From NCBI GenBank assembly GCA_947455695.1, contig CANGRN010000006.1:1-15906 (forward strand): DNA of 15,906 nt, given 5' to 3'. The DNA is from Alphaproteobacteria bacterium (GTDB taxonomy: Bacteria; Pseudomonadota; Alphaproteobacteria; Micropepsales; Micropepsaceae). The position numbers and the translations under genes were made by a program. Under the pieces are notes generated by a model. It did not search any database, had not been told where the DNA came from, and worked only from the letters and a program-made list of their open reading frames with translations. This document shows, piece by piece, positions 1,587 through 15,130 of this stretch (the first letter of the stretch is position 1; each line of letters starts with the position of its first letter).

Positions 1587-2885
1587 ATGCGCGACGAGAC
1601 ACTGGCATTGCACGCCGGCTTTGACGCCGACCCCGCCACGCGGGCGGTGGCGGTACCGATTTATCAAACCGCTGCCTACCAGTTCGATTCCGCCGACCAG
1701 GGCGCGGCGCTCTTCAACCTGGAAGAGGAAGGCTATCGCTACAGCCGCATCGCCAATCCGACGGTGGCGGTTCTGGAAGAACGCGTTGCGGCGCTGGAAG
1801 GCGCGGCCGGCGCGCTGGCGACGGCGAGCGGCCAGGCGGCGTTGTATTATGCGCTGGCGAACGTGGCGCAGGCCGGACAGAACATCGTCTCCACCCCGCA
1901 GCTTTACGGCACCACCCATACCCTGTTGCACAGCGTGCTGCCGGGCCAGGGCGTGGAAGGACGCTTCGCCGCCGGCGACAGCGCCGATGCGCTGGCCGCC
2001 TGCATCGACGACAATACCCGCGCGGTATTTTGCGAGACGGTCGGCAACCCCGCCGGCAATATCTGCGACATCGAAGCCATCGCCCGCATGGCCCATGCCA
2101 GGGGCATTCCCCTGATTGTGGACAATACCGTGGCGACGCCGGTGCTGCTCAAGCCCGCCGAGCACGGCGCCGATATCATCGTGCATTCGCTGACCAAGTT
2201 CATGGGCGGCCATGGCTCTGCCATGGGCGGCATGGTGGTGGATGCCGGCAAGTTCGACTGGATGGCCAACAAGGCGCGGTTCCCGCAATTCACCACCCCG
2301 GACCATTCCTATCACGGCCTGGTCTATGCCGAGCGCTTCGGCGCCAAGGCGTTCATTGCCCGCGCCCGCAGCGTCTATCAGCGCACCACCGGTGCCATCT
2401 TGTCGCCCATGAGCGCCTTCCTGCTGCTGCAGGGTATCGAGACCGTCAGCCTGCGTATCGAGCGCCATGTCGAGAATGCGAAGGCGGTGGCCGATTTCCT
2501 GCGCGGCGATGCCCGCGTGTCGTGGGTCAATTATGCCGGCTTCCCCGACAGCCCCTATCACGGGTTGGCCAGGAAATATCTTGGCGGCCGGGTGCCGTCC
2601 CTGCTGACCTTCGGCGTGGAAGGCGGCTTCGAGGCGGGCAAGAATTTCTATGACGCCCTTGGCCTAATCAAGCGGCTGGTCAATATCGGCGATGCCAAGT
2701 CGCTGGCCTGTCATCCGGCTTCCACCACCCATCGCCAGATGCCGGAAGCCGAACAGCGCAAGGCCGGCGTCACCCCGGAGACCATTCGCCTGTCCATCGG
2801 CATCGAGCATCGCGACGACATCATCGCCGATCTGGACCAGGCGCTGGCCGCCGCGGCCCAGGGCAAAAAGAGGATTGCGCGATGA
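1587..2885 (+). CDS. metY: O-acylhomoserine sulfhydrylase (MetY type), PLP-dependent
   Basis: Cytosolic PLP enzyme of the Cys/Met metabolism family that makes homocysteine from an O-acylhomoserine and sulfide (direct sulfhydrylation), the penultimate part of methionine synthesis. The 432-residue length and the long insert around 'FPQFTTPDHSYHGLVY' fit MetY rather than the shorter MetZ/MetB/MetC enzymes. The PLP lysine is K204 in SLTKFMGGHG; the upstream aspartate is in 'IVDNTVATP', and 'GYRYSRIANPT' and 'HPASTTHRQM' are the other family blocks. The ATG at 1587 gives the expected N-terminus (RDETLALHAGFD) but has no clear Shine-Dalgarno. The stop overlaps the start of the metA-type gene by 4 bases (ATGA), so the two are co-translated and the neighbour supplies its substrate. 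Whether it prefers O-acetyl- or O-succinylhomoserine is uncertain; see the partner gene. Confidence 0.93.
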   Translation: MRDETLALHAGFDADPATRAVAVPIYQTAAYQFDSADQGAALFNLEEEGYRYSRIANPTVAVLEERVAALEGAAGALATASGQAALYYALANVAQAGQNIVSTPQLYGTTHTLLHSVLPGQGVEGRFAAGDSADALAACIDDNTRAVFCETVGNPAGNICDIEAIARMAHARGIPLIVDNTVATPVLLKPAEHGADIIVHSLTKFMGGHGSAMGGMVVDAGKFDWMANKARFPQFTTPDHSYHGLVYAERFGAKAFIARARSVYQRTTGAILSPMSAFLLLQGIETVSLRIERHVENAKAVADFLRGDARVSWVNYAGFPDSPYHGLARKYLGGRVPSLLTFGVEGGFEAGKNFYDALGLIKRLVNIGDAKSLACHPASTTHRQMPEAEQRKAGVTPETIRLSIGIEHRDDIIADLDQALAAAAQGKKRIAR

Positions 2886-3859
2886 GCCGCGTCGAACAAT
2901 TCCTGCTGGGCGGCGGGCACAATCGCACCGCCATCCATGTCGGGCTGGTCAACAACATGCCCGATGCGGCGCTGCGCGCCACCGAGCTGCAATTTGCCCG
3001 CCTGCTGAAGGCGTCGGCCGGCACATTGGACGTGCGGTTGCGCCTGTTTTCGCTGGCCTCGATTCCGCGCGGCGAAGAAGCCCGCGGGCGCATGGCCGGT
3101 TTCTATGACGATGCCGGTTTCCTGCAGGCCGCCAATATCGAAGCCCTGATCGTCACCGGCGCCCAGCCCGGCGCCCCGGACCTGCGCGGCGAGCCCTATT
3201 GGGACGAGCTGGCGCGTCTGATCGAGTGGGCCGAGACCGGCACAATCTCCACTTTGTTCTCATGCCTGGCCGCCCATGCCGCGGTGCTGCACCTGGACGG
3301 CATCGCGCGCCGCCCGCTGCCCCGGAAACTCTCCGGCGTCTATGACAGCACCCGGGTCGAAGACGATCCCTTGTTCTTCAACACCGCGCCCGCGGTGCCG
3401 GTGCCCCATTCACGCCGCAACGACATCGCCGAAAGCGATCTGGTGGCCAAGGGTTATCGCGTGCTGTCGCATCTGGAGAATGGTCAGACCGATATCTTCA
3501 CCCGCGAACCGCCGGGGCAGAGCCGCTTTGTCTTCTTCCAGGGCCATCCCGAATATGATCCGGGCACGTTGGGCCGTGAATATCTGCGCGACATGGGCCG
3601 TTTCCTGCGCGGCGAAAGCGCCGAGCGCCCGGCGCTGCCGGAAAATTACTTCGACCGCGCCACCGAGGACCAGCTGACGGCCATGGCCGGTGAAACCGAG
3701 CTGGCGCGCTTCAACGAGGTCGTCATGAGCGCCCTGCCGCGCCAGATGTGGCGCAGCAACACCATCAAGCTGTTCGGCAACTGGCTGACATTGGTGGCCG
3801 CGGCCAAGGCGCGCCGCGCATCCTCGCGCAGCGTGCATACCCGCCGCCGCGCATCCTAG
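2882..3859 (+). CDS. metA: Homoserine O-acyltransferase, MetA family (probable O-succinyltransferase)
   Basis: Transfers an acyl group from acyl-CoA to the hydroxyl of homoserine, the first committed step of methionine synthesis. The protein has 325 residues (E. coli MetA has 309). The nucleophile is C128 in STLFSCLAAHAA; H222 and E224 in GHPEYD complete the triad; 'KLSGVYD' and 'PHSR' are further family blocks. At the position known to set CoA preference (E. coli residue 111) it has Gly (G97 in VTGAQPG), which in the family favours succinyl-CoA over acetyl-CoA. Oddities: the usual lysine-containing segment after 'MP' near the N-terminus is replaced by DAALRATEL (27-35), two residues longer by my recollection of the E. 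coli sequence, and the C-terminus ends in an Arg/Ser-rich tail. AAGAGGA at 2868-2874, 7 bases ahead of the ATG, is a good ribosome binding site. The last 4 bases overlap the convergent gene. Confidence 0.85.
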   Translation: MSRVEQFLLGGGHNRTAIHVGLVNNMPDAALRATELQFARLLKASAGTLDVRLRLFSLASIPRGEEARGRMAGFYDDAGFLQAANIEALIVTGAQPGAPDLRGEPYWDELARLIEWAETGTISTLFSCLAAHAAVLHLDGIARRPLPRKLSGVYDSTRVEDDPLFFNTAPAVPVPHSRRNDIAESDLVAKGYRVLSHLENGQTDIFTREPPGQSRFVFFQGHPEYDPGTLGREYLRDMGRFLRGESAERPALPENYFDRATEDQLTAMAGETELARFNEVVMSALPRQMWRSNTIKLFGNWLTLVAAAKARRASSRSVHTRRRAS

Positions 3860-5670
3860 ACCGTCGGGACCGCGTCAAAAGCAATCGTTGTCCTTGGCTG
3901 GGTATCCCGGAACGGCACCGTGCCGTGCCACATATAGGACGGGAACAGCACCAGCCGTCCGGCGCGCGGCTGGATGGCGCGGCGGATCGGGTCTTTCAGG
4001 TCCACGTCCAGCGCTGGCTCGCCGAACTTGATCCAGCCTTGCCGGCCTTGCGTATCCTCCACCGCCTTGGGCAGCGCCACGTAATAGCAGGAGCTGATCC
4101 AGCCTTCGGGATGGATATGGTTGGTATGGAAACCGCAGTCTTTCAGTCGCGAAGACCAGGAGCCGGTATAATCGAAACCGCGCGCCCGGCGCGAGAGCAG
4201 GGGATGGCTCTCGTCCGGCTTCATTTCGGCGATATAACGGCCGACCGCTTCGCGGATGCGCTGCTGGATTTTTTCCACCAGCACATGGCCGGCGCCAAAC
4301 AGCTTGTCCGGCGTCTGGCTGCCGTTTCGCAGTGACTGGTCCAGATATTCGCGGGTGGTGGGATGCACCCGGTCCAGCCAGGCATTCAGCTCGGCATTGA
4401 AGCTTTCCATGTCGGAATAGCCTTCCGGCGGCTCCAGGTCATAGGCCTTGATCAGTGTGTCATAGCCGCTCAGCGCCTCGTCGCGTTCATCGCCCAGCAT
4501 GCGCCAGGCGGTGCCCAGCATGGCCAGCGCCACCTGGTCGTGCGGCGCCAGCACCAGGCTTTTTTCGCACAGGGCCGCACCGCGCTGCGGATCGCCCGCG
4601 AGGATCGCGCCTTCCGCGGCGCAGCTCAAAAGATTTGCGTCTTCGCCAAACCTGGCCATCACCTCGTCGAAAACTTTCAGGGCCTCGGCCGGCCGCTTCA
4701 TCAGGTTCAGGGCATTTCCCACCCCGGTGGCGGCCGCCTTGTCGTCCGGCGCCAGCGCCTGGGCGGCGCGGTAAACCTCCAAAGCCTCCTCACCGCGCTT
4801 TTCATGGGTGAGGAAGTACGCCTTGGACATCAGAATTTCAGCGGTCTGCGGCGCCTGGTCGTAGGATTTGAGATAGTCCTCATGTCCCAGCCGGTACAGC
4901 AGGTCGTTGTGGAATTTGTGCCATTGCGGATTGGCCGGATCGCGTGTCACCAGGTCCCGCGATATCCGGACCGCTTCGTCATAGCGCTTCAGGTCCTGCA
5001 GGATTTCCGCACGGATGGCCTCGGATACCGGATCGGGGTCCAGTGCCACCGCATTTTCATAATGGGTCAGCGCTTCTTCATTCTTGTGTTGCCGGCGCAG
5101 CGCCAGGCCCAGTCTTTGGTGCAGCGTGCCGCGCCCCTCTGCCGACGCCACGCCCTCCAATGCTTCGCGCAAGGGCATTTCGGCCTCGGCCGGTCGCCTG
5201 GCCGCCAGCAGCACATCGCCCAGCGACAGCCGCGCACGGACATTTTCCGGCATCACCCGCAACCATTGGCGCGCCAAAATCTCCGCTTCTTTCAGGTCGC
5301 CCAAGTCCTGGAGCGTGTTGACCGCCTCGAAATAGGCTTCGCCATAATTGGGCTTCAATGCGATGGCGGCTTTGAAGGCCCGGGCCGCTTCCTCATTGCG
5401 CTGCAGCCAGCGCAGCGCCGTGCCGTGGCTGAAGGCCAGAAGCGCCGCGCGCGGATCGGCGGCGCGGGCGCGCGCAAAAAGACCGGCGGCGTCTTCATGG
5501 CGTTGCTGGTGCATGCGCAGCAGCCCGGCCAGGTGCAGCACGTGCGGATCCTCCTGTGTCAGCAGGGGCGCCAGCGCCCGGTCGGCCGCGCCGGTATCGC
5601 CCATCCGCAGGGCCTGACTCGCGGTCCCGAGGGCCTGCAAAAGGGCCGGATTTTCCTGGGTGGTCATCAT
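3856..5670 (-). CDS. TPR-repeat protein with C-terminal 2OG-Fe(II) oxygenase domain
   Basis: Protein of 604 residues. Residues about 10-410 form roughly ten TPR-like helical hairpins with the usual spaced Ala/Gly/Leu and terminal Pro (for example 'AIALKPNYGEAYFEAVN' and 'AVALDPDP'), a protein-binding scaffold. Residues about 455-604 look like a putative 2-oxoglutarate/Fe(II)-dependent oxygenase of the 2OG-FeII_Oxy_5 kind: H520-P-E522 followed by 'WISSCYYVALP', then 'GRLVLFPSYMWHGTVPF' with H582, and R593 in 'RTTIAFD'. H520, E522 and H582 are the likely iron ligands and R593 the likely 2-oxoglutarate ligand. No signal peptide or membrane segment is seen, so it is probably cytosolic. Start: ATG at 5670 with a TAGGGTG-like ribosome site upstream; a second ATG follows at 5667. 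It converges on metA and diverges from hpnI. The substrate is unknown; TPR-hydroxylase fusions often act on proteins, but that is inference. Confidence 0.8.
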   Translation of the reverse strand: MMTTQENPALLQALGTASQALRMGDTGAADRALAPLLTQEDPHVLHLAGLLRMHQQRHEDAAGLFARARAADPRAALLAFSHGTALRWLQRNEEAARAFKAAIALKPNYGEAYFEAVNTLQDLGDLKEAEILARQWLRVMPENVRARLSLGDVLLAARRPAEAEMPLREALEGVASAEGRGTLHQRLGLALRRQHKNEEALTHYENAVALDPDPVSEAIRAEILQDLKRYDEAVRISRDLVTRDPANPQWHKFHNDLLYRLGHEDYLKSYDQAPQTAEILMSKAYFLTHEKRGEEALEVYRAAQALAPDDKAAATGVGNALNLMKRPAEALKVFDEVMARFGEDANLLSCAAEGAILAGDPQRGAALCEKSLVLAPHDQVALAMLGTAWRMLGDERDEALSGYDTLIKAYDLEPPEGYSDMESFNAELNAWLDRVHPTTREYLDQSLRNGSQTPDKLFGAGHVLVEKIQQRIREAVGRYIAEMKPDESHPLLSRRARGFDYTGSWSSRLKDCGFHTNHIHPEGWISSCYYVALPKAVEDTQGRQGWIKFGEPALDVDLKDPIRRAIQPRAGRLVLFPSYMWHGTVPFRDTQPRTTIAFDAVPTV

Positions 5671-5864: not shown

Positions 5865-7022
5865 GTGACCATGCATTCGCTATTCCTGGATATCGGCTGG
5901 TTTTTGGCGGCGATCGCAGCAGTCGGCACCTTCTATGCGCTGCTGTCCGCTGTACTGGTCGGCCGCTTCATGCAGGAAGCGCCGCGCGCGCCTGTCGCAA
6001 GTCCCGCTGTCACCATCCTCAAGCCCCTGCACCAGGGCGAGCCCGATCTGGCGCGCAACCTGGAGACTTTCTTCGCCCAGGATTACGCCGGCGACGTGCA
6101 GATCCTGTTCGGCGTGCATGACCAGGCCGATCCCGCCATCGACATCGTGCGCGCTCTGCAGGCCAAGTATCCGCATAGGGACACCGCCATCGTGGTGGAC
6201 ACGGCGCTGTATGGCGCCAATGCCAAGATTTCCAACCTGATCAATATGCTGCCGTCCGCGCGTCATGACACGCTGGTGCTGTCGGACAGCGACATTGCCG
6301 TGGGCCCCAAATGGCTGGCCCAAGTGACCGCGGCGCTGGCGCGCCCCGGTGTCGGCATCGTCACCTGCCTCTATACCGGCGAACCGGCCAGGGATGGCCA
6401 CCGGTTGTGGTCGTCGCTGGCGGCGATGGGCATGTCCTATACCTTCCTGCCCAATGCGGTGCTGGGCACCAGCCTTGGCCTTGCCACGCCCTGCTTTGGT
6501 TCGACCATCGCGCTCAAGCGCCAGACCCTGGACGAGGTCGGCGGATTCGCGGCCTTCGCCGATCAGCTGGCCGACGATTACGAGATGGGCCGCGCCGTGC
6601 GCGCCAAGGGTTACACATTGGCAATCCCGGCGATGGGCGTTGGCCATACGGCGGCGGAAAATTCGGTTCGGGAACTGATACGCCATGAGCTGCGCTGGAC
6701 CCGCACCATCCGGCTGGTCAATCCGGCCGGTCACCTGGGCAGTTTTGTCACCCATGGCTTCGTCTTTGCCCTGATGGCTGCCCTGTTCCTGGATGCTAAC
6801 GCTGTCAGCCTGGCTCTGCTGGCCGCATCGCTGGGCGCGCGGCTCTTGCTGAAAGCCCGGATTGACGGGCATTTTGGCACCAATGGCGGGCCGTACTGGC
6901 TGATGCCGCTGCGCGACCTGCTGAGTTTCGCGGTCTTTGTGGCCTCGCTGTTCGGCGAAACCGTGCATTGGCGCGGGACGCACTTTGCGGTAGAGCCTTC
7001 GGGCGCGATGTCCCAGGTCTGA
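5865..7022 (+). CDS. hpnI: HpnI, bacteriohopanetetrol N-acetylglucosamine transferase
   Basis: Inner-membrane family-21-type glycosyltransferase, related to ceramide glucosyltransferases. In characterised hopanoid producers HpnI transfers N-acetylglucosamine from the UDP-sugar to bacteriohopanetetrol. The 385 residues start with a membrane segment (about 7-33). The GT-A domain follows, with 'TILKPLHQGEPDL' near 50, DSD at 141-143, the aspartates of DQLADDYEMG near 233-238, and HELRW at 274-278 corresponding to the (Q/R)xxRW motif. Two more hydrophobic stretches lie at about 296-330 and 350-364. The start is GTG 5865, with a G-run at 5850-5854 about 10 bases ahead; ATG 5871, two codons later, is the alternative. 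It is the first gene of the long plus-strand hopanoid cluster, followed after 47 bases by hpnJ. Function is by family; the acceptor is supported by the hpnJ and hpnK neighbours. Confidence 0.92.
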   Translation: MTMHSLFLDIGWFLAAIAAVGTFYALLSAVLVGRFMQEAPRAPVASPAVTILKPLHQGEPDLARNLETFFAQDYAGDVQILFGVHDQADPAIDIVRALQAKYPHRDTAIVVDTALYGANAKISNLINMLPSARHDTLVLSDSDIAVGPKWLAQVTAALARPGVGIVTCLYTGEPARDGHRLWSSLAAMGMSYTFLPNAVLGTSLGLATPCFGSTIALKRQTLDEVGGFAAFADQLADDYEMGRAVRAKGYTLAIPAMGVGHTAAENSVRELIRHELRWTRTIRLVNPAGHLGSFVTHGFVFALMAALFLDANAVSLALLAASLGARLLLKARIDGHFGTNGGPYWLMPLRDLLSFAVFVASLFGETVHWRGTHFAVEPSGAMSQV

Positions 7023-7060: not shown

Positions 7061-7075
7061 CCCAGAGGTATGACG

Positions 7076-8503
7076 ATGATGAAGTCCCTTTTCCTGCAGG
7101 CCCCGTCTTTCGAGGGTTATGACGGCGGCGCCGGCGCGCGGTACCAGATGAAGCGGGAAGTGAAGAGCTTCTGGTTTCCCACCTGGCTGGCCCAGGCCGC
7201 GGCGATGGTGCCCGGCTCGCGCCTGATCGACGCCCCGCCGCACAACCTGTCCTTCAAGGACATCGAAGACGATGTGAAGGCCCATGAGCTGATCGTCATT
7301 CACACCTCCACGCCCAGCTTCAAGTCCGACTGCAAGAGCGCGCGCCTTGTCCGCGCCCTCAATCCCACCGCCAAGATCGGTTTCATCGGCGCCAAGGTCG
7401 CGGTCGAGCCGATGGAGAGCATGCAGGCCTGCCCCGAACTCGATTTCGTGGCGCGCAATGAATACGACTTCACCATCAAGGAAATCGCCGAAGGCGCGGA
7501 CTGGTCCACCATCAAGGGTCTGACCTATCGCAATGCTTCGGGTGAAATCATCTCGAACCCCGAGCGCGAAATCCTGGTCGACATGGACAAGCTGCCGTCG
7601 GTGCTGCCCTACTACAAGCAGCTGGATGTGAAGAAGTATTTCGGCGGCTACCTGCTGCACCCCTACATGTCCTGGTACACCGGCCGCGGCTGCAAGTCGC
7701 GCTGCACCTTCTGCCTGTGGCCCCAGACCATCGGCGGCCACAAGTACCGCTTCATGTCCACCGAGCGCGTGGTGCGCGACGTGCAGTATGTGAAGGACAA
7801 TTTCCCCGAGGTGAAGGAAATCTTCTTCGACGACGACACGCTGACCGACAACCACGATCGCGTGGAAGAACTGGCCAAGGCGCTGGGCCCGCTGAAGATC
7901 ACCTGGTCGTGCAACGCCAAGGCGAACGTTCCGCGCAAGACCCTGGAAGTGATGAAGGCCAATGGCCTTCGCCTGCTGCTGGTCGGCTATGAATCCGGCA
8001 ACCAGCAGATCCTGCACAACATCAAGAAGGGCCTGCTGGTCGATGTCGCGCGCCGCTTCTCCAAGGATTGCCACGATCTGGGCATCGTCGTGCACGGCAC
8101 CTTCATCCTGGGCCTGCCGGGGGAAACCCGCGAAACCATCCAGGAAACGCTGCAATTCGCCAAGGATGTGAACCCGCACACCATCCAGGTGTCGCTGGCC
8201 GCGCCCTATCCGGGCACCTTCCTGTACAAGCAGGCCAAGGAAAATGGCTGGTTTGCCTCCGACGTGGACCTGTTGACGGACGACGGCACGCAGATTGCGC
8301 CGCTGAACTATCCGCACCTGGGCCATACCGAGATCTTCAATTCGGTGGAGGACTTCTACAAGAAGTTCTATTTCCGCCCGTCCAAGATCGCCGAGATCGT
8401 CAAGGAGATGCTCACCAGCCGCGACATGCTGGTGCGCCGCCTTCGCGAAGGCGTGGAGTTCTTCCAGTTCCTCAAGAACCGCGAAGACATGATCGTCTCC
8501 TAG
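7076..8503 (+). CDS. hpnJ: HpnJ, radical SAM enzyme of hopanoid headgroup (cyclitol ether) synthesis
   Basis: Radical SAM protein needed in known producers for converting glucosaminyl-bacteriohopanetetrol to the cyclitol ether, a sugar ring contraction. The iron-sulfur motif CxxxCxxC is in GRGCKSRCTFCLW; counted from ATG 7070 the cysteines are 208, 212 and 215. The preceding about 190 residues resemble the cobalamin-binding-like N-terminal domain of this radical SAM group ('IVIHTSTPSFKSD', 'IGFIGAKVAVEP'). 'FFDDDTLTDN' and 'GTFILGLPGET' are the usual barrel blocks, and the tail fits HpnJ. Start choice: ATG occurs at 7070, 7076 and 7079. AGAGG at 7064-7068 is only one base from 7070 but seven from 7076, so 7076 (or 7079) is preferred and yields an M-K-S-L-F-L-Q-type start expected for HpnJ. 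Product about 475 residues. The stop overlaps the hpnK GTG by one base. Confidence 0.93.
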   Translation: MMKSLFLQAPSFEGYDGGAGARYQMKREVKSFWFPTWLAQAAAMVPGSRLIDAPPHNLSFKDIEDDVKAHELIVIHTSTPSFKSDCKSARLVRALNPTAKIGFIGAKVAVEPMESMQACPELDFVARNEYDFTIKEIAEGADWSTIKGLTYRNASGEIISNPEREILVDMDKLPSVLPYYKQLDVKKYFGGYLLHPYMSWYTGRGCKSRCTFCLWPQTIGGHKYRFMSTERVVRDVQYVKDNFPEVKEIFFDDDTLTDNHDRVEELAKALGPLKITWSCNAKANVPRKTLEVMKANGLRLLLVGYESGNQQILHNIKKGLLVDVARRFSKDCHDLGIVVHGTFILGLPGETRETIQETLQFAKDVNPHTIQVSLAAPYPGTFLYKQAKENGWFASDVDLLTDDGTQIAPLNYPHLGHTEIFNSVEDFYKKFYFRPSKIAEIVKEMLTSRDMLVRRLREGVEFFQFLKNREDMIVS

Positions 8504-9345
8504 TGAGGCGTCTCATCGTCACCGCCGACGACTTCGGCGCTGCTGTCGAAGTCAATGAGGCGGTCGAACGCGCGCACCGGAACGGCATTCTTTCCGCCGC
8601 CAGTCTCATGGTTGCCGGCGCTGACGCCGGCGACGCCGTTGCGCGCGCCAAGACCATGCCGGAGCTGCGCGTCGGACTTCACCTGGTGTTGGTCGAGGGC
8701 AGGCCGATCCTGCCGCGGGATGCGGTGCCGGATCTGGTCGATGCGACCGGTCATTTTCGCACCGACATGGCGCGCGCCGGCGCCGCAATGTTCTTTTTCC
8801 CGAAAGTGCGCGCGCAACTGGCGGCCGAGATCGAAGCCCAGTTCGCGGCGTTCGAGGCCACGGGCCTGCGGCTGGATCACGTCAACGCCCACAAGCATTT
8901 CCACCTGCACCCCACCATCGCGTCCCTGATCGTGAAGATCGGCAAGACCCATCGCGTGACGGGTGCGCGCGTACCGCTGGAGCCGCAGGATGTGCTGGGC
9001 AGGATCGAACCGCACAAGGCCTCCGGCGTGGTGGCCCTGACCGCGCCGTTTGCGCGCGCGTTGCGCGGCCGCTTCCGCCGCGCCGGCATCACCGCGCCCG
9101 ATGCGGTGTTCGGCCTGGCCTGGTCCGGCGCGATGACGCGAAAGCGGCTGGCGGGGTTGATCGAACATCTGCCCGATGGCCTGAGCGAGATTTATACCCA
9201 CCCGGCCACCGGGCCGTATCCGGGCTCGGCGCCGGGTTATCAGTATGCCGGGGAACTGGCGGCTTTGACCGATCCGGCGGTGGTGGCCAGCCTTGCTGCA
9301 AAAGGGATCAAAACCGGCGGTTTTTCCGACTTTAAAGTCCAATAA
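8503..9345 (+). CDS. hpnK: HpnK, hopanoid N-acetylglucosamine deacetylase (YdjC/ChbG family)
   Basis: Metal-dependent carbohydrate deacetylase that removes the acetyl group from N-acetylglucosaminyl-bacteriohopanetetrol made by HpnI. The 280-residue protein opens with RRLIVTADDFG (D9, D10), has H60 in 'VGLHLVLVEGRP', and a histidine-rich metal segment DHVNAHKHFHLHP at 125-137; these are the family metal and catalytic regions. 'EIYTHPA' near the C-terminus is also typical. The start is GTG at 8503, overlapping the hpnJ stop (TAGTG) by one base; no ATG lies close enough to preserve the TADDFG N-terminus, and no strong ribosome site is visible, so translation is probably coupled to hpnJ. A 91-base gap follows. 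The family assignment is strong; the substrate follows from the hpnI/hpnJ context. Confidence 0.92.
   Translation: MRRLIVTADDFGAAVEVNEAVERAHRNGILSAASLMVAGADAGDAVARAKTMPELRVGLHLVLVEGRPILPRDAVPDLVDATGHFRTDMARAGAAMFFFPKVRAQLAAEIEAQFAAFEATGLRLDHVNAHKHFHLHPTIASLIVKIGKTHRVTGARVPLEPQDVLGRIEPHKASGVVALTAPFARALRGRFRRAGITAPDAVFGLAWSGAMTRKRLAGLIEHLPDGLSEIYTHPATGPYPGSAPGYQYAGELAALTDPAVVASLAAKGIKTGGFSDFKVQ
9310..9339. repeat. Small hairpin and 12-base palindrome at the end of hpnK
   Basis: Within the last codons of hpnK, AAAACC (9310-9315) can pair with GGTTTT (9319-9324) and is followed by one more T. GACTTTAAAGTC (9328-9339) is a perfect 12-base palindrome ending just before the stop codon. The hairpin is AT-rich with a 3-base loop and no long T-run, so it would be at best a weak terminator. 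The palindrome could be a protein-binding site or chance. Confidence 0.25.
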
Positions 9346-9366
9346 AAGCAAATACTTGCGCTGAGT

Positions 9367-9406
9367 TTGACGGAGATCATTTTAGGGTTCAATTGCTCCT
9401 GTCAAA
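9367..9406 (+). promoter_or_regulatory. Candidate internal promoter ahead of the diiron pair
   Basis: The 91-base gap 9346-9436 is the largest in the hopanoid cluster and is AT-richer than its surroundings. TTGACG at 9367-9372 is a good -35 match, but there is no convincing -10 box 16-18 bases downstream. TTTGAC (9366-9371) and GTCAAA (9401-9406) form inverted 6-base arms 29 bases apart. The call rests on the -35 match and the gap position, and is weak. Confidence 0.25.
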
Positions 9407-9436
9407 GGGGTATTGCAGTGCGAGAATGGAGCGTCG

Positions 9437-10342
9437 ATGAGTAGTCCGGCTTTCGCTATCCCCCCCGACCTGACGCGTGATACCGGCGCCTGGCCTGGTG
9501 ACGGTCCTATCAAGTTCGGCTCGGACGAGCACAAGCGGCTGTTCTGCAAGACGCTGCTCGACACCCATGACCCCTACAAGCCGGCGGTGCTGGACTGGCC
9601 CAAGCTGGGCGAGGAAGCCGAGAAGCGCATCACCGCGCTGCCGATCTGGGACATCGCTGTCCAGACCGAGAACCGCGCCGGCCTGAATGTCTGCACCTAT
9701 GCCGAAAGCATTCCCGATCAGCTGCTGCGCAAGGCAGTGGAGCTGAACGGCTTCGAGGAACGCCGCCACCGCCATGTGCTGGCCAACCTAGTCGAGGCTT
9801 ACGGCATCAAGCTGGCGCCCGAGCCGGTTTATGAGAAGCCGAAGAACCCGGAATGGGCCTTCCTGGTCACCGGCTACAGCGAATGCATCGACTCGTTCTT
9901 TGCCTTCGGTCTGTTCAAGGCCGCCAAGGACACCGGCTATTTCCCGCCCGAGCTGATCGCGACCTTCGATCCGGTCGTGAACGAGGAAGCCCGCCACATC
10001 CTGTTCTTCGTCAACTGGGTGGCCTGGCACCGCCGCAACATGCCCTGGTGGCGCCGGCCCTATTTCGAGTTGAAGGTTCTCGCGGTCTGGCTGTTCCTGA
10101 TCTATGAGCGCATGGGCATCGCCTCGGACGTGTCCAATGGTCAGCAGGACAACAACTTCACCGTCAACGGCGCCGCGCAGCTGGGGTCGGACATCGATGT
10201 CGGCGAGTTGATCGCCATCTGCGTCGCCGAGAATGACCGCCGCCTGAAGCCCTATGACGACCGTTTGAAGCGTCCGCGTTTCGTGCCTTTCCTGGCGCGC
10301 ATGGCGCTGAAATTCATTGGTCCGAAAAAGAAAGCCGCCTGA
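9437..10342 (+). CDS. Ferritin-like diiron protein A in hopanoid cluster
   Basis: Predicted non-haem diiron protein of 301 residues with a four-helix ferritin-like core. Ligand set: E78 (TENRAG), E108 and H111 (GFEERRH), E149 (GYSECIDSF), E184 and H187 (NEEARHILFFVNW), giving E-30-ExxH-41-E-35-ExxH. This is the arrangement of diiron oxygenases and oxidases, so O2 activation is likely; the substrate is unknown. A hydrophobic helix at about 211-222 (ELKVLAVWLFLI) could sit against the membrane, and the C-terminus ends in lysines. The start is ATG 9437 because GGAG at 9428-9431 lies five bases ahead; an in-frame TTG at 9413 would add eight residues but is disfavoured. The stop overlaps the next gene by one base. 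The next gene encodes a paralogue. I do not recognise a named Hpn family here; the fold call is confident, function is inferred from context. Confidence 0.85.
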   Translation: MSSPAFAIPPDLTRDTGAWPGDGPIKFGSDEHKRLFCKTLLDTHDPYKPAVLDWPKLGEEAEKRITALPIWDIAVQTENRAGLNVCTYAESIPDQLLRKAVELNGFEERRHRHVLANLVEAYGIKLAPEPVYEKPKNPEWAFLVTGYSECIDSFFAFGLFKAAKDTGYFPPELIATFDPVVNEEARHILFFVNWVAWHRRNMPWWRRPYFELKVLAVWLFLIYERMGIASDVSNGQQDNNFTVNGAAQLGSDIDVGELIAICVAENDRRLKPYDDRLKRPRFVPFLARMALKFIGPKKKAA

Positions 10343-11190
10343 TGAAAATCGGATCGCCGCAGCACCGCGACACCTTCTGCAAGCATTTCATGCAGACCTA
10401 TACCGAGTTCGATCCGGAAACGCTGCCCTGGCCGGACCTGGACGAGGCAGCGCTGGCGCGCCTGAAGTCGGTGCCGTTCTGGGAAGAAGTTTTCTACACC
10501 GAGCGCCGTGCCGGCGCGATCGTGGCCGAATTCGTCAAGACCATCAAAGACCCGGTGATGAAGGAAGCCGTGGCGCTGCAGGGCTTCGAGGAAGCCCGCC
10601 ACGCCAAGCTGCTCCGGGTGATGATCCAGAAATACAATATCGACGCCGCCGAACGGCCGCTGGAAGATGTCAGCGACAATGTCGAAACCCGCTTCAAGGA
10701 TTTCGGCTTCGGCGAATGCATGGACTCATTTCTTGGTTTCGGCGTTTTCAAGATCGCCATGCAGTCGCAATTCCTGCCCAAGGAAATGTTCCAGATCTTC
10801 GAAACCCTGATGTACGAAGAAACCCGTCACATCGTCTTCTTCGTCAACTGGATGGCCTATAACCAGGCGCAGAAGGGCTTTCTCGCCCGCATGCTGCTGC
10901 CGCTGACCGACTTCCGCTATTACATGCGCGCCCTGGGCCGCATGGTGGGCACCGCCAAGCGCGGCAAGGAGCTGAACGACGGCAAGGAATTTTCCGCCAC
11001 CCAGGCGAGCGTTTTCCTGGACGGCTTCACCTTCCGCCGCTTCCTGGAAGACTGCTATTCGGAAAACCGCCGCCGCATGGACGTGTTCGAGCCCGAATTG
11101 CTCCGCCCCAGCTTCCTGCCCCAGCTGGCGGAAACCGCGCTGGGCGCCATGCGCTTGTGGAGTTTCCGCGCCAAGCCGCTTCCTGCGTAA
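10342..11190 (+). CDS. Ferritin-like diiron protein B, paralogue of the preceding gene
   Basis: Predicted diiron protein of 282 residues, clearly paralogous to the upstream gene: GFEEARHAKLL against GFEERRHRHVL, FGECMDSFLGFGVFK against YSECIDSFFAFGLFK, and EETRHIVFFVNWMAY against EEARHILFFVNWVAW. Ligands are E54, E84 and H87, E125, E160 and H163, with spacings 30, 41 and 35 exactly as in protein A, so neither copy has lost its site. Protein B lacks most of the about 24-residue N-terminal extension of A. The C-termini are also related (ENRRRMDVF against ENDRRLKPY). Start ATG 10342 overlaps the upstream stop (TGATG) by one base; no strong ribosome site, so coupling is likely, and its own stop overlaps the hpnL ATG by one base. 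Possibly A and B form a heterodimer or act on successive positions of a hopanoid; both are inference. Confidence 0.85.
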   Translation: MKIGSPQHRDTFCKHFMQTYTEFDPETLPWPDLDEAALARLKSVPFWEEVFYTERRAGAIVAEFVKTIKDPVMKEAVALQGFEEARHAKLLRVMIQKYNIDAAERPLEDVSDNVETRFKDFGFGECMDSFLGFGVFKIAMQSQFLPKEMFQIFETLMYEETRHIVFFVNWMAYNQAQKGFLARMLLPLTDFRYYMRALGRMVGTAKRGKELNDGKEFSATQASVFLDGFTFRRFLEDCYSENRRRMDVFEPELLRPSFLPQLAETALGAMRLWSFRAKPLPA

Positions 11191-12164
11191 TGAAGTGGGC
11201 GCCAAAGCTCGGGGTCGCTGTCGCGCTGCTGGCTGGCGTCATCGCGGCCGTTTATCTGGTCCTGACCATCGGTTTTGACGCGGTGTTCGCGGCGGTCGCG
11301 CGCGCCGGCTTCGGTGGCCTGGCGCTGTTGTGCCTGTTCGCGCTGCTTGTGTTCATCAGCCTTGCTTTTGCCTGGTACACGCTGCTGCCGCCGTCCGAGC
11401 GCCGGCCGGTGCGCGATTTCTATCTCGCCCGCGTGGTGCGCGATTCCATCGCCGAGATTTCGCCCTTCTCGCCGGTGGGCGGCATGGTCGCCGCGGCGCG
11501 GCTGATGGTGTTGAAGGGCATGAGCCCGGCCCATGCCGCCGCTTCCGTCGCCGGCGACGCCACCACCGAAGCAATGGCGCAGGTCGTGTTCCTGGCCTTC
11601 GGGCTGGGCCTGGGCTTCACCCAGTTCCGCCACCTGGAAGGTTCGGGACCGGTCACCGAGGGCATGCTGGCGGTGCTGCTGCTCGCGATTCCGGCGATTG
11701 CGCTGCTGATCTTCCTGCAGAAGAAAGGCGCCGGGCTGGCCGAGCGCATGGCCGCGCGCTTCTTCCCCCTGCGCCAGGGCGTCCCGTTTCACGCCGCGAT
11801 CACGGAACTGTACAGCTCCAAGAGCCGTCTGGCGGTGTCGGCGGCGCTGCATCTGCTGGCCTGGATCGGGGCCGGTGTGGGGACGTTCATTTCCTTCCGC
11901 CTGGTGGGCGGGCAGATCGGCTTTTTGAATGCCGTGGCGCTGGAAGCCCTGCTGTGCACCTTGCGCAGCATCGCCGCGCCTGTGCCCGCCGCCATCGGGG
12001 TGCAGGAATGGGGTTACGCCATGCTGGCGCCGCTGTTCGGCCTGCCGGCGGAGATGGGTGTGGCGGTGTCGCTGCTCAAGCGGGCGCGCGAGATCGTGAT
12101 CGGCGTGCCGGCGCTGATCTATTGGCAAAGCGTGGAAAGCCGAAAGGCGTTCGCCAATGTCTGA
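11190..12164 (+). CDS. hpnL: HpnL, multi-pass membrane protein, flippase-like (LPG synthase TM type)
   Basis: Integral membrane protein of 324 residues with about seven to eight hydrophobic segments (for example about 7-27, 38-63, 123-140, 156-175, 215-240 and 280-315). It matches the membrane domain of lysylphosphatidylglycerol synthase/UPF0104 proteins, which are thought to move lipids across the bilayer: 'ARVVRDSIAEISPFSPVGG' and the downstream 'AAPVPAAIGVQEWGY' are the family blocks. HpnL of hopanoid loci belongs to this group; moving tailored hopanoids is plausible but not shown. Start: ATG 11190 overlaps the upstream stop (TAATG) by one base; a GTG at 11157 is in frame but would overlap the diiron gene by 34 bases. 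No ribosome site is visible, so translation is probably coupled. Its 3' end overlaps hpnA by 8 bases. Confidence 0.8.
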   Translation: MKWAPKLGVAVALLAGVIAAVYLVLTIGFDAVFAAVARAGFGGLALLCLFALLVFISLAFAWYTLLPPSERRPVRDFYLARVVRDSIAEISPFSPVGGMVAAARLMVLKGMSPAHAAASVAGDATTEAMAQVVFLAFGLGLGFTQFRHLEGSGPVTEGMLAVLLLAIPAIALLIFLQKKGAGLAERMAARFFPLRQGVPFHAAITELYSSKSRLAVSAALHLLAWIGAGVGTFISFRLVGGQIGFLNAVALEALLCTLRSIAAPVPAAIGVQEWGYAMLAPLFGLPAEMGVAVSLLKRAREIVIGVPALIYWQSVESRKAFANV

Positions 12165-13146
12165 TATCGCACTGGTCACCGGAGCATCCGGGTTCGTCGG
12201 CTCGGCCGTGGCGCGGGCGCTTGTGGCGCGCGGCCTGCATGTGCGGGTGGTGATGCGACCCACCGCCAACCGGCTCAATATCGCCAAGCTGCATTGCGAA
12301 CCGGTGGTCGGCGACATGCGCGATGAGGCCTCGATGACCGCCGCGCTGAAAGGTGCGCGCTATCTGTTCCATGTCGCGGCCGATTATCGCCTCTGGGCGC
12401 GCGATCCGGGCGAGATCGAACGCAACAATTTCCAGGGCGCCAGGGCGACCATGGGCGCGGCGCTGAAGGCCGGTGTGGAACGGGTGGTCTATACCTCCTC
12501 CGTCGCGGCCCTGAAGCCGGGTGATGCCGCGGTGGATGAGAATTCCCGCCACACGCCGCAAAGCGTGATCGGCGCTTACAAGCGCAGCAAGCTGGTGGCC
12601 GAGCGCGAAGTGGAACGCCTGGTGCGGGAGGAGGGGCTTCCCGCCGTCATCGTGGCGCCGTCCACCCCCATCGGTCCGCGCGACATCAAGCCCACGCCGA
12701 CAGGGCGCATCATCGTCGAGGCCGCCACGGGGCGCATGCCGGCCTTTGTCGATACCGGACTCAACCTGGTGCATGTCGATGATGTGGCGAACGGCCATCT
12801 GCTGGCCCTGGACAAGGGCAAGATCGGCGAAAATTACATATTGGGCGGTACGGACGTGGCCCTGCAGACCATGCTGGGCGATATCGCCTTTTTGTCGGGT
12901 CGCAAGGCGCCCACCATCAAGATCCCGCGCGCGCCCTTGTTCCCGCTGGCCTGGGCGGCCGAAGCGGTTGCCCGCGTGACCGGCAAGGAGCCGTTCCTCA
13001 CCGCCGATGCGCTCCGCATGTCGCGCTATCGCATGTTCTTCAGCAGCGAAAAGGCCAGGCGCGATCTGGGCTATACCGCAAGGCCCTATCGCGAAGGCCT
13101 GAAGGATGCGCTGAGCTGGTTCCGTGAGAACGGATATCTGGCATGA
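12157..13146 (+). CDS. hpnA: HpnA, NAD(P)-dependent epimerase/dehydratase-like protein
   Basis: Extended short-chain dehydrogenase of 329 residues found at hopanoid loci. The Rossmann motif TGASGFVG is at residues 8-15, the catalytic Y141-xxx-K145 in AYKRSK, and the serine in VVYTSS (113-115). 'DYRLWARDPGEIERNN' is characteristic of HpnA (the hopanoid-associated sugar epimerase family) rather than general GalE-type epimerases. The exact substrate is not established by the sequence; a sugar nucleotide or a hopanoid side-chain sugar intermediate is usually assumed. AAAGG at 12143-12147, nine bases before ATG 12157, is a usable ribosome site inside the hpnL end. The gene overlaps hpnL by 8 bases and hpnB by 4, so it is part of one coupled transcript. 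No odd features seen. Confidence 0.9.
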   Translation: MSDIALVTGASGFVGSAVARALVARGLHVRVVMRPTANRLNIAKLHCEPVVGDMRDEASMTAALKGARYLFHVAADYRLWARDPGEIERNNFQGARATMGAALKAGVERVVYTSSVAALKPGDAAVDENSRHTPQSVIGAYKRSKLVAEREVERLVREEGLPAVIVAPSTPIGPRDIKPTPTGRIIVEAATGRMPAFVDTGLNLVHVDDVANGHLLALDKGKIGENYILGGTDVALQTMLGDIAFLSGRKAPTIKIPRAPLFPLAWAAEAVARVTGKEPFLTADALRMSRYRMFFSSEKARRDLGYTARPYREGLKDALSWFRENGYLA

Positions 13147-14288
13147 TTGCGGGCATCCTGTTCGGCTTCCTGCCGCTCCTGATCTGGCTCTATCTGCTGC
13201 TGTTCCACAACGGCTTCTGGCTGCTGCGCGAACGCGACACGCAGCCGCTCGCCGAGCCCGATGCCTGGCCGTCTGTGGTGGCCGTGGTGCCGGCACGCGA
13301 CGAGGCGGATGTGATCCATCGCAGCATCGGCAGCCTGATCGCCCAGAATTATCCTGGCGAGTTTCGCATCGTGCTGGTGGACGACCAGTCGGGCGACGGA
13401 ACCGGCGCGCTGGCGCGGGCGCTGAATTCCGAGCGGCTGACGGTGCTGACGGGCGCGGCGCGCCCCTCGGGCTGGACCGGCAAGCTGTGGGCGATGAGCC
13501 AGGGCAGCGATTACGCCGCCGCCTTCAAGCCGGATTACCTGTGGTTCACCGACGCTGACATCGCCCATGCTCCGGACAATCTGCGCATGCTGGTGTCGCG
13601 CGCCAGGGATGGCAACCGGGTACTGGTGTCGCTGATGGCGCGGCTCAACTGCAAATCGGCGGCCGAGCATTTCCTGATTCCCGCCTTCGTGTTTTTCTTC
13701 GACATGCTGTTTCCGTTCGGCGCGGTCAACAATCCGCGCAACCCCGTGGCCGCGGCGGCCGGCGGCTGTATGCTGGCCAATAGCGCGGCGCTGGAAAAAG
13801 CCGGCGGCATTGCCGCCATCCGGCACAACATCATCGACGATTGCGCCCTGGGCCGGGCAATGAAGCGGCAGGGCTCCATCTGGCTGGGGCTTACCGACCG
13901 CGCTGTCAGCTTGCGGCCCTATCCCCATATCGCCGATATCCGCCATATGGTGACGCGCAGCGCCTATGCCCAATTGGGTTATTCGCCGCTGGTGCTGGCC
14001 GGCACCATGCTGGGCCTGGCGCTGGTCTATCTGGCGCCGGTGATGACGGCACTGTTCGCCTGGGGCATTTCGCAATTGGCTGGCTGGCTGGCTTGGATCA
14101 TCATGGCGCTGATTTACCAGCCCATGCTGCGCTTCTACCGCCTGTCGCCGCTATGGGGATTGGCCCTGCCGCTGATCGGCATTTTCTATGCGGCTTTCAC
14201 CCTGCAGTCGGCCGTCCAGTACTGGTCGGGCAAGGGCGGCATGTGGAAGGGCCGGGCCCAGGCGGATGCCGGAAAGGGCGCGGCATGA
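13143..14288 (+). CDS. hpnB: HpnB, hopanoid-associated glycosyltransferase
   Basis: Membrane-bound family-2-like glycosyltransferase of 381 residues. It has an N-terminal membrane segment (about 2-21), the GT-A domain 'VVAVVPARDEADVI', then VLVDDQSGDGTG (D80, D81), 'FTDADIAHAPDN' (D137, D139), and 'IIDDCALGRAMKRQG' (D232, D233) as the third acidic motif. 'TRSAYAQLGYSP' and the C-terminal 'GKGGMWKGR' are typical of HpnB. Hydrophobic stretches at about 180-195, 285-325 and 338-355 anchor it. HpnB occurs with HpnA in hopanoid operons; the sugar and acceptor are not proven by sequence. ATG 13143 overlaps the hpnA stop by four bases (ATGA), and the hpnC ATG overlaps its stop likewise. Confidence 0.9.
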   Translation: MIAGILFGFLPLLIWLYLLLFHNGFWLLRERDTQPLAEPDAWPSVVAVVPARDEADVIHRSIGSLIAQNYPGEFRIVLVDDQSGDGTGALARALNSERLTVLTGAARPSGWTGKLWAMSQGSDYAAAFKPDYLWFTDADIAHAPDNLRMLVSRARDGNRVLVSLMARLNCKSAAEHFLIPAFVFFFDMLFPFGAVNNPRNPVAAAAGGCMLANSAALEKAGGIAAIRHNIIDDCALGRAMKRQGSIWLGLTDRAVSLRPYPHIADIRHMVTRSAYAQLGYSPLVLAGTMLGLALVYLAPVMTALFAWGISQLAGWLAWIIMALIYQPMLRFYRLSPLWGLALPLIGIFYAAFTLQSAVQYWSGKGGMWKGRAQADAGKGAA

Positions 14289-15130
14289 GCAGCGTCGCTG
14301 AACTCCAGTCGGGCAAGGGCCATAAGGACGAGAATTTTCCCGTCGCCTCTATCCTGATCGCGCCGAAGCATCGCCCGCCGGTGATGGCCTTCTACCATTT
14401 CGTGCGCGCCGCCGATGATGTGGCCGATAGCGCCACAGCCGCGCCCGATGAAAAGCTGGCGCTGCTGGATCAGATGCGCGCCAGCCTGGTGGGGGAGAGC
14501 GATGCGGTGCCCGAAGGCGTCAAGCTGCGCGAAATTTTGAAAGAGCGCACCCTGTCGCCGGTGCATGCGCTGGACCTGCTGGAAGCGTTCCGCCGCGATT
14601 GCACCAAGCTGCGCTACCGGGACTGGGACGATCTGATCGACTATTGCCGCTACAGCGCCATGCCGGTGGGCCGCTTTGTGCTGGACGTGCATGGCGAAAG
14701 CCGTGATCTGTGGCCGGCCAACGACGCCCTGTGTGCCGCCCTCCAGGTGATCAACCACCTGCAGGACTGCGCCAAGGATTACCGCGAACTGAACCGGGTC
14801 TATATCCCGGAGCCGTTGCTGGCCGGGATCGGGGTGGAGGCGCTGGGCCAGAATAAAGCCAATCCAGCCCTGACTTTGGTGATCGCCGGGCTGGCGCGCC
14901 GGAATGCCGGGCTTCTGGAGACTTCGCGCCCCTTCGCGCGCGGTATAAAAGACGGCCGGCTGGCGCTGGAAGTGGACCTGATCCAGACCCTGGCCGATGA
15001 CCTGAATACCATGCTGATGAACCGCGACCCGCTCAGCCAGCCCGTGCATCATTCCAAGATGGACGTGGCGGCCCTGTTCCTGAAACGCTTTCCTTCCTTC
15101 GCGCTGATGCGCCTGAGACGCCCCAGATGA
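14285..15130 (+). CDS. hpnC: HpnC, hydroxysqualene synthase
   Basis: Class I trans-prenyltransferase-like enzyme (squalene/phytoene synthase fold), 281 residues. In the HpnCDE route HpnC converts presqualene diphosphate, made by HpnD, to hydroxysqualene. The first Asp-rich motif is DDVAD at 44-48 (after FYHFVRAA), the second is NHLQDCAKDY at 157-166; the latter, with the 'KHRPPVMAFYHF' segment, marks HpnC rather than HpnD. ATG 14285 overlaps the hpnB stop by four bases; GGAAAGGG at 14271-14278 six bases ahead is a strong ribosome site. The stop overlaps the hpnD ATG by four bases. Substrate assignment follows from the characterised HpnCDE pathway. Confidence 0.92.
   Translation: MSSVAELQSGKGHKDENFPVASILIAPKHRPPVMAFYHFVRAADDVADSATAAPDEKLALLDQMRASLVGESDAVPEGVKLREILKERTLSPVHALDLLEAFRRDCTKLRYRDWDDLIDYCRYSAMPVGRFVLDVHGESRDLWPANDALCAALQVINHLQDCAKDYRELNRVYIPEPLLAGIGVEALGQNKANPALTLVIAGLARRNAGLLETSRPFARGIKDGRLALEVDLIQTLADDLNTMLMNRDPLSQPVHHSKMDVAALFLKRFPSFALMRLRRPR

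Follow-up and report, generated by a model that had tools for sequence, protein, structure and literature searches.

MiaE uses a diiron site to hydroxylate a side chain derived from an isoprenoid, AcsF (the aerobic Mg-protoporphyrin IX monomethyl ester cyclase) is a diiron enzyme whose target is a CH2 group in the side chain of a large ring system and whose reaction ends in a ketone, and AurF is a family of diiron oxygenases. Here we describe two adjacent genes, A and B, that encode ferritin-like proteins of diiron type and lie inside the hopanoid (hpn) gene cluster of an alphaproteobacterium of the family Micropepsaceae (assembly GCA_947455695.1, contig CANGRN010000006.1, forward strand; the whole 15,906-nucleotide stretch analysed is hereafter the window). 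The pair shares its cluster with lettered hpn genes and co-occurs with hpnH, but no Hpn model in NCBIfam matches either protein, in line with an earlier interpretation made from the letters of the window alone (the sequence-only reading), and neither reached the cut-off of any Pfam or NCBIfam family. The two genes form a new pair within the hopanoid cluster and carry no Hpn letter. With moderate confidence, we favour the reading that both are O2-dependent diiron monooxygenases of the bacteriohopanepolyol (BHP) side chain, A leading to bacteriohopanepentol (pentol) and B most likely to bacteriohopanehexol (hexol).

The + strand of the window carries, in order, hpnI, hpnJ, hpnK, A, B, hpnL, hpnA, hpnB and hpnC (Table 1). 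The placement of the pair between hpnK and hpnL, proposed by the sequence-only reading, was borne out by the flanking genes, which scored above the NCBIfam cut-offs as HpnI, HpnJ, HpnK, HpnL, HpnA, HpnB and HpnC. The A stop overlaps the B start (TGATG) and the B stop overlaps the hpnL start (TAATG), each by a single base of the stop codon; for A and B we infer translational coupling, as the sequence-only reading had proposed. A and B aligned without gaps over 267 amino acids at 33% identity (BLASTP, E 3e-57), and the six diiron ligands assigned earlier to each paralogue were all in place with identical spacing. Both proteins carry, in the order seen in the ferritin-like diiron superfamily, a double set of E / ExxH ligand pairs, and the ligand motif arose in 0/20,000 shuffles, for A and for B separately. 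Among 166 copies of A or B from the fetched loci, 162 kept the exact six-ligand spacing, a count in which some genes are present twice via two loci and each fused protein is counted double. The four deviating copies comprised two with a small shift (L056, L087), one with the motif missing (L033) and a contig-edge fragment (L096). All six A ligands were invariant in an alignment of 60 sequences (45 A, 15 B), as were all six B ligands in an alignment of 43 (28 B, 15 A). Ratios of nonsynonymous to synonymous substitution against nine close loci were 0.07–0.20 for A and 0.05–0.18 for B, similar to those for hpnK (0.10–0.22). The diiron-type sites of A and B are intact, conserved and under purifying selection. 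Separately, A copies or fragments in four genomes (G220, G333, G499, G484) had an in-frame stop within the matched frame, a possible sign of decay or of assembly error.

We analysed the genomic context of A in 80 loci (L003–L082), the best 80 of 157 relatives in named genomes, scoring neighbouring genes by tblastn with the window's own proteins. Another hpn gene was present in 76/80 loci. Three of the remaining four (L022, L059, L082) came from genomes with HpnH elsewhere; the remaining one (L073) is confined to a contig of 4.6 kb. hpnK lay directly upstream of A in 67/80 loci and hpnL or B directly downstream in 63/80, while B was present in 22/80. Among ten hpnJ-positive, A-negative genomes examined, hpnL directly followed hpnK in three (L149, L150, L155), and because of this adjacency A looks like an optional insert.

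Co-occurrence with hopanoid genes extended beyond the cluster itself. The class sample comprised 241 alphaproteobacterial genomes, 63 of them with HpnH and 17 with A. With the window's incomplete assembly (59% complete) excluded, HpnH was present in 16/16 A-positive genomes versus 63/240 overall (p 1e-10, ignoring kinship). In the genus of Novosphingobium nitrogenifigens, A occurred in 9/109 genomes, 9/9 of them HpnH-positive (HpnH overall, 32/109), and in the Acetobacteraceae, the family that includes Asaia, in 66/120, of which 65/66 were HpnH-positive (HpnH overall, 107/120). A occurred only with hpnH across these three sets, with a single genome (G337) as the sole exception. HpnJ was above its cut-off in only 8/16 A-positive genomes of the class sample, and one genome (G055) has A and B around its hpn core cluster but no HpnJ. 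A and B are independent of HpnJ, and neither requires hpnI/J/K, a link that the sequence-only reading had suggested surveying. Because HpnJ accompanied A in only half of these genomes, the probable target is the side chain of the polyol, not the cyclitol headgroup. Homologues mostly outside hopanoid loci, which would have spoken against a hopanoid role, were not the rule in Micropepsaceae or Sphingomonadales. In Acetobacteraceae, A lay beside hpn genes in L115, L119 and L120, and also near them in L161–L163, which were chosen because A lay near hpnH. In Cupriavidus metallidurans CH34, A adjoins hpnB, hpnA and hpnH. On a replicon of Burkholderia cenocepacia, A has no hpn neighbour within 8 kb; in another strain of that species, a feature was annotated as bacteriohopanepentol cyclitol ether from its tandem mass spectrum (PMC8560942). 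A and B belong to hopanoid metabolism.

Two of the A-positive genomes that could be compared with lipid data, Sphingomonas mali NBRC 15500 and Gluconacetobacter diazotrophicus PA1 5, are presumably strains of a BHP survey published in 2025 under other names. The survey, with BHP measurements for 54 alphaproteobacteria, describes the genes for pentol and hexol as unknown and, in its section 4.1.2.6, reports no candidates for them near hpn clusters (PMC12583986). Phenotypes below are the combined pentol and hexol shares in its Table 3. All five A-positive strains were pentol/hexol makers: S. mali (90%), Sphingobium estronivorans (41%), S. formosensis (23%), N. nitrogenifigens (15%) and G. diazotrophicus PA1 5 (P0287; 6%) (PMC12583986). 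Given 21 makers among 48 BHP producers in the survey, 5/5 corresponds to p 0.012, with kinship ignored. In four of these strains (L030, L053, L069, L072), A sits inside the hpn cluster. Novosphingobium rosa, by comparison, had 0% pentol and hexol and made bacteriohopanetetrol (BHT) cyclitol ether only (PMC12583986). Its presumed genome (G395) has hpnH and hpnI-J-K, but searches for homologues of A and B gave none there, one contig (L102) reading as masked. A 19.9-kb stretch of that presumed genome (L121) held no A and no hpnL match. In the same stretch (7131–12143), hpnK is followed first by a gene with weak similarity to MlaA (103 bits, cut-off 375), then by hpnN. Comparing makers with BHT-only relatives across six strains, 5/5 A-positive strains made pentol or hexol, and A was not found in presumed N. 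rosa. The agreement between A and phenotype is suggestive, not proof.

The distribution of B differed from that of A. All 25 A-positive sphingomonad genomes tested, which were selected from named records among the best 80 of 157 relatives, had A without B, with one homologue each, of A type. The pair described by the sequence-only reading is not obligatory. In the survey, hexol occurs in Rhodospirillales only and pentol in Sphingomonadales too (PMC12583986). A B-like second copy was found in 24/59 genomes of the window's genus and in 17/120 Acetobacteraceae, adjoining A in 15 of the latter; the seven that were fetched were of B type. Asaia bogorensis has A and B adjacent, and Rohmer degradation showed substantial hexol in two strains, Asaia siamensis and Nitrospirillum (PMC12583986). 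The B protein of G055 grouped with a Reyranella protein in the tree; Enhydrobacter, which the survey places with Reyranella, has free and carbamoylated pentol and hexol (PMC12583986), while NCBI taxonomy keeps Enhydrobacter in Hyphomicrobiales incertae sedis. Where strains or genera could be checked, A agreed with pentol and B with hexol. In a quick tree built from 73 selected rows and including several long end branches, A and B sequences fell on opposite sides of a branch with SH-aLRT support of 100; the three 'A' rows on the B side were fused A-B proteins. These fusions, encoded by open reading frames from three metagenome genomes, have about 580–600 residues and both ligand sets intact. 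Twenty-five positions were type-specific, some within four residues (<=4) of a ligand, as expected if A and B differ in substrate or position rather than forming a catalytic and a dead subunit.

The sequence-only reading had offered hydroxylation, desaturation or oxidation of a hopanoid side chain or headgroup. Among these options, side-chain hydroxylation towards pentol and hexol, the example that it gave, is the best-supported candidate on HpnH co-occurrence, gene order and the published lipid table. A would hydroxylate C-31 of bacteriohopanetetrol or its derivatives to give bacteriohopanepentol, and B would most likely add the next hydroxyl, at C-30, to give bacteriohopanehexol. By analogy with the superfamily, two irons would be held by the E / ExxH ligand pairs and reduced by a donor not recognised in the cluster; the reduced site would then bind O2, form a high-valent oxo species and insert oxygen into an sp3 C-H bond. 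Metal content, O2 use, substrate, carbon numbers and electron donor are all predicted properties here. More tentatively, and with less than even confidence, A and B may form a stepwise regiospecific pair that acts at C-31 and then C-30 and passes the product between them. Such product passing would explain the translational coupling in the window and the fusion elsewhere.

The same overlap and the fusions in L047, L049 and L054 would also fit a single enzyme, a heterodimer or fusion, carrying out one oxidation, e.g. to a 32-oxo intermediate that a hydratase then converts to pentol. The weak resemblance of B to AcsF, with its ketone product, points in that direction too, as does the 32-oxo-BHT glycoside cited for Zymomonas by the survey, whose authors speculate on oxidation followed by water addition (PMC12583986). 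However, the 25 sphingomonad genomes have A without B, and pentol is made by the four of them with a known phenotype; neither site is incomplete, the two are under similar constraint, and no hydratase is found among the window's named genes, so that a one-enzyme system appears unlikely. Where the sequence-only reading left a choice between two active subunits and two successive reactions, successive reactions are favoured since A alone is common; two subunits of one reaction are disfavoured, although the fusions show that A and B can be held together. Another family of explanations directs A and B at something else: the cyclitol or glucosamine headgroup, ring desaturation, or redox protection of HpnJ/HpnH by a rubrerythrin-like peroxidase. 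In favour of such roles are the position next to hpnK in most loci of two orders and the weak Rubrerythrin and Ferritin_2 matches. Yet HpnJ is missing above cut-off in half of the A-positive genomes, G055 has the pair without it, the four A-positive sphingomonad strains contain 0–1% unsaturated BHPs (PMC12583986), no rubredoxin family is among the Pfam matches listed for A or B, and 47/63 HpnH-positive genomes of the class sample are without A, which argues against a general HpnH protector. A headgroup role as the leading explanation was rejected on the persistence of A without HpnJ, a ring desaturase was rejected on the sphingomonad lipid data, and a target outside the side chain is, taken overall, improbable.

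It is also conceivable that pentol and hexol are made by another enzyme, e.g. the tetratricopeptide repeat (TPR) protein with a 2-oxoglutarate and Fe(II)-dependent (2OG-Fe(II)) oxygenase domain encoded beside hpnI on the - strand, with A and B merely travelling along. Its domain is clear (PF13759, 82.6 bits over 27), and the gene is divergent from hpnI and occupies the same place in 12/80 loci, all of Micropepsaceae type. However, a search confined to the hpn stretches fetched from the sphingomonads that produce pentol (L030, L053, L069, L072) gave no homologue, and we give this explanation very little credence.

Several observations weigh against A and B as O2-dependent side-chain hydroxylases. 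Genotypes could be assigned to no more than six strains with a phenotype, and six of the eight BHP-producing Sphingomonadales in the survey make pentol regardless (PMC12583986). The genome assignment of N. rosa is tentative, and its masked contig may hide a gene. In Acetobacteraceae, A lay away from hpn genes in 13/16 stretches examined, albeit in genomes where it co-occurs with HpnH, and in the A-positive G337 (Acetobacteraceae, ~350 contigs) HpnH was not found. No redox or electron-donor partner was recognised by eye among the clustered neighbours shared between 18 loci outside the hpnI-J-K context, for which no family search was made. The Rhodopila strain LVNP contained bacteriohopanepentol cyclitol ether; the passages around this liquid chromatography–mass spectrometry result describe anoxic cultures and do not state the growth condition of the sample analysed (PMC8590665). 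An O2-independent route to pentol in Rhodopila would contradict an oxygenase. Pentol has also been reported from Azotobacter and Nostoc, outside the genomes searched for A. Finally, Rhizomicrobium palustre, which by name is closest to the window among cultured species, had 1% pentol (PMC12583986). The genus Rhizomicrobium is mixed for A (a match in 48/59 genomes, fragments included), so that R. palustre may carry A or lack it. Rhizomicrobium is described as facultatively anaerobic, and low oxygen in culture could, post hoc, explain the low pentol value.

The remaining features of the window are listed in Table 1. No + strand promoter was detected in the 91-bp gap between hpnK and A by a scan for the sigma-70 consensus, and no RNA element reached Rfam gathering scores in the window. 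ARAGORN placed a tRNA-Asp(atc) at 2524–2612 (+), inside an O-acetylhomoserine sulfhydrylase gene, and this call is probably false. The named close relatives of A carry the label Rhizomicrobium, family Micropepsaceae. Four named records (L009, L011, L015, L016) are labelled Rhizobiales, Hyphomicrobiales or Rhizobium and have the cluster as in the window, with A 85–94% identical; their labels may be wrong.

Table 1 Coordinates of the A/B pair, its ligand codons and neighbouring genes in the window, and of fused A-B genes in other loci.
Feature	Coordinates	Strand	Description
Gene A	9437..10342	+	301 aa, ferritin-like diiron protein; candidate C-31 hydroxylase of bacteriohopanetetrol (to bacteriohopanepentol)
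Gene B	10342..11190	+	282 aa, diiron paralogue of A; candidate second hydroxylase (C-30, bacteriohopanehexol)
A ligand codons	9668..9997	+	E78 9668-9670, E108 9758-9760, H111 9767-9769, E149 9881-9883, E184 9986-9988, H187 9995-9997
B ligand codons	10501..10830	+	E54 10501-10503, E84 10591-10593, H87 10600-10602, E125 10714-10716, E160 10819-10821, H163 10828-10830
TGATG, A stop / B start overlap	10340..10344	+	putative translational coupling
TAATG, B stop / hpnL start overlap	11188..11192	+	
Fused A-B	L047 9938-11698; L049 3462-5255; L054 4212-5957		upstream of hpnL-like gene
hpnI	5865..7022	+	BHT N-acetylglucosaminyltransferase; TIGR03472, 445 bits (cut-off 310)
hpnJ	7070..8503	+	radical S-adenosylmethionine enzyme, BHT cyclitol ether formation; TIGR03471, 750 bits (cut-off 577.6)
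hpnK	8500..9345	+	deacetylase; TIGR03473, 362 bits (cut-off 232.6)
hpnL	11190..12164	+	membrane protein without assigned role; TIGR03476, 246 bits (cut-off 195.65)
hpnA	12157..13146	+	TIGR03466, above cut-off
hpnB	13143..14288	+	TIGR03469, above cut-off
hpnC	14285..15130	+	TIGR03464, above cut-off
TPR protein	3856..5670	-	C-terminal 2OG-Fe(II) oxygenase domain; PF13759, 82.6 bits (cut-off 27)

On the strength of their sequences and distribution, A and B are good candidates for the missing enzymes of the fifth and sixth BHP hydroxyl groups. Hopanoid remains serve as molecular fossils. If the assignment is true, a genotype test for pentol and hexol becomes feasible, and the oxygen requirement of this biomarker class would become testable. 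The pair would also represent a new family of lipid-acting diiron hydroxylases. Under the more tentative stepwise reading, genomes could be scored for pentol (A) and hexol (A and B), and the two polyols would mark bacterial metabolism that depends on oxygen. Among the literature matches listed, no title or abstract connected hopanoid tailoring with a protein of ferritin-like or diiron type.

The weak family matches of A and B point to proteins of ferritin-like diiron type (Rubrerythrin, Ferritin_2, AurF, AcsF). AurF (PF11583) was weakly matched by 16/60 alignment members, but A (14 bits) and B (11.6 bits) fell below its gathering score of 29.6. AcsF (NF010172/TIGR02029) was weakly matched by 28/43 members of the B-first alignment (best E 1.2e-4), but B scored 21.4 bits against a cut-off of 391, and A was unmatched. 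As a side observation, the window's HpnJ (7070–8503) matches its distant relative BchE, the anaerobic cyclase (E 3e-30), whereas B weakly matches AcsF, the aerobic cyclase of the same reaction; this parallel may be coincidence. The top profile match among solved structures was a MiaE-like tRNA hydroxylase, also a diiron enzyme (PDB 5ux1), which aligned marginally over the ligand region (A, E 0.054; B, E 0.021); it differs in its substrate, tRNA, and the match leaves the C-terminal third of A and B uncovered. Set beside these systems, we propose that A and B represent a diiron protein family without a model of its own, acting in a known but orphan reaction.

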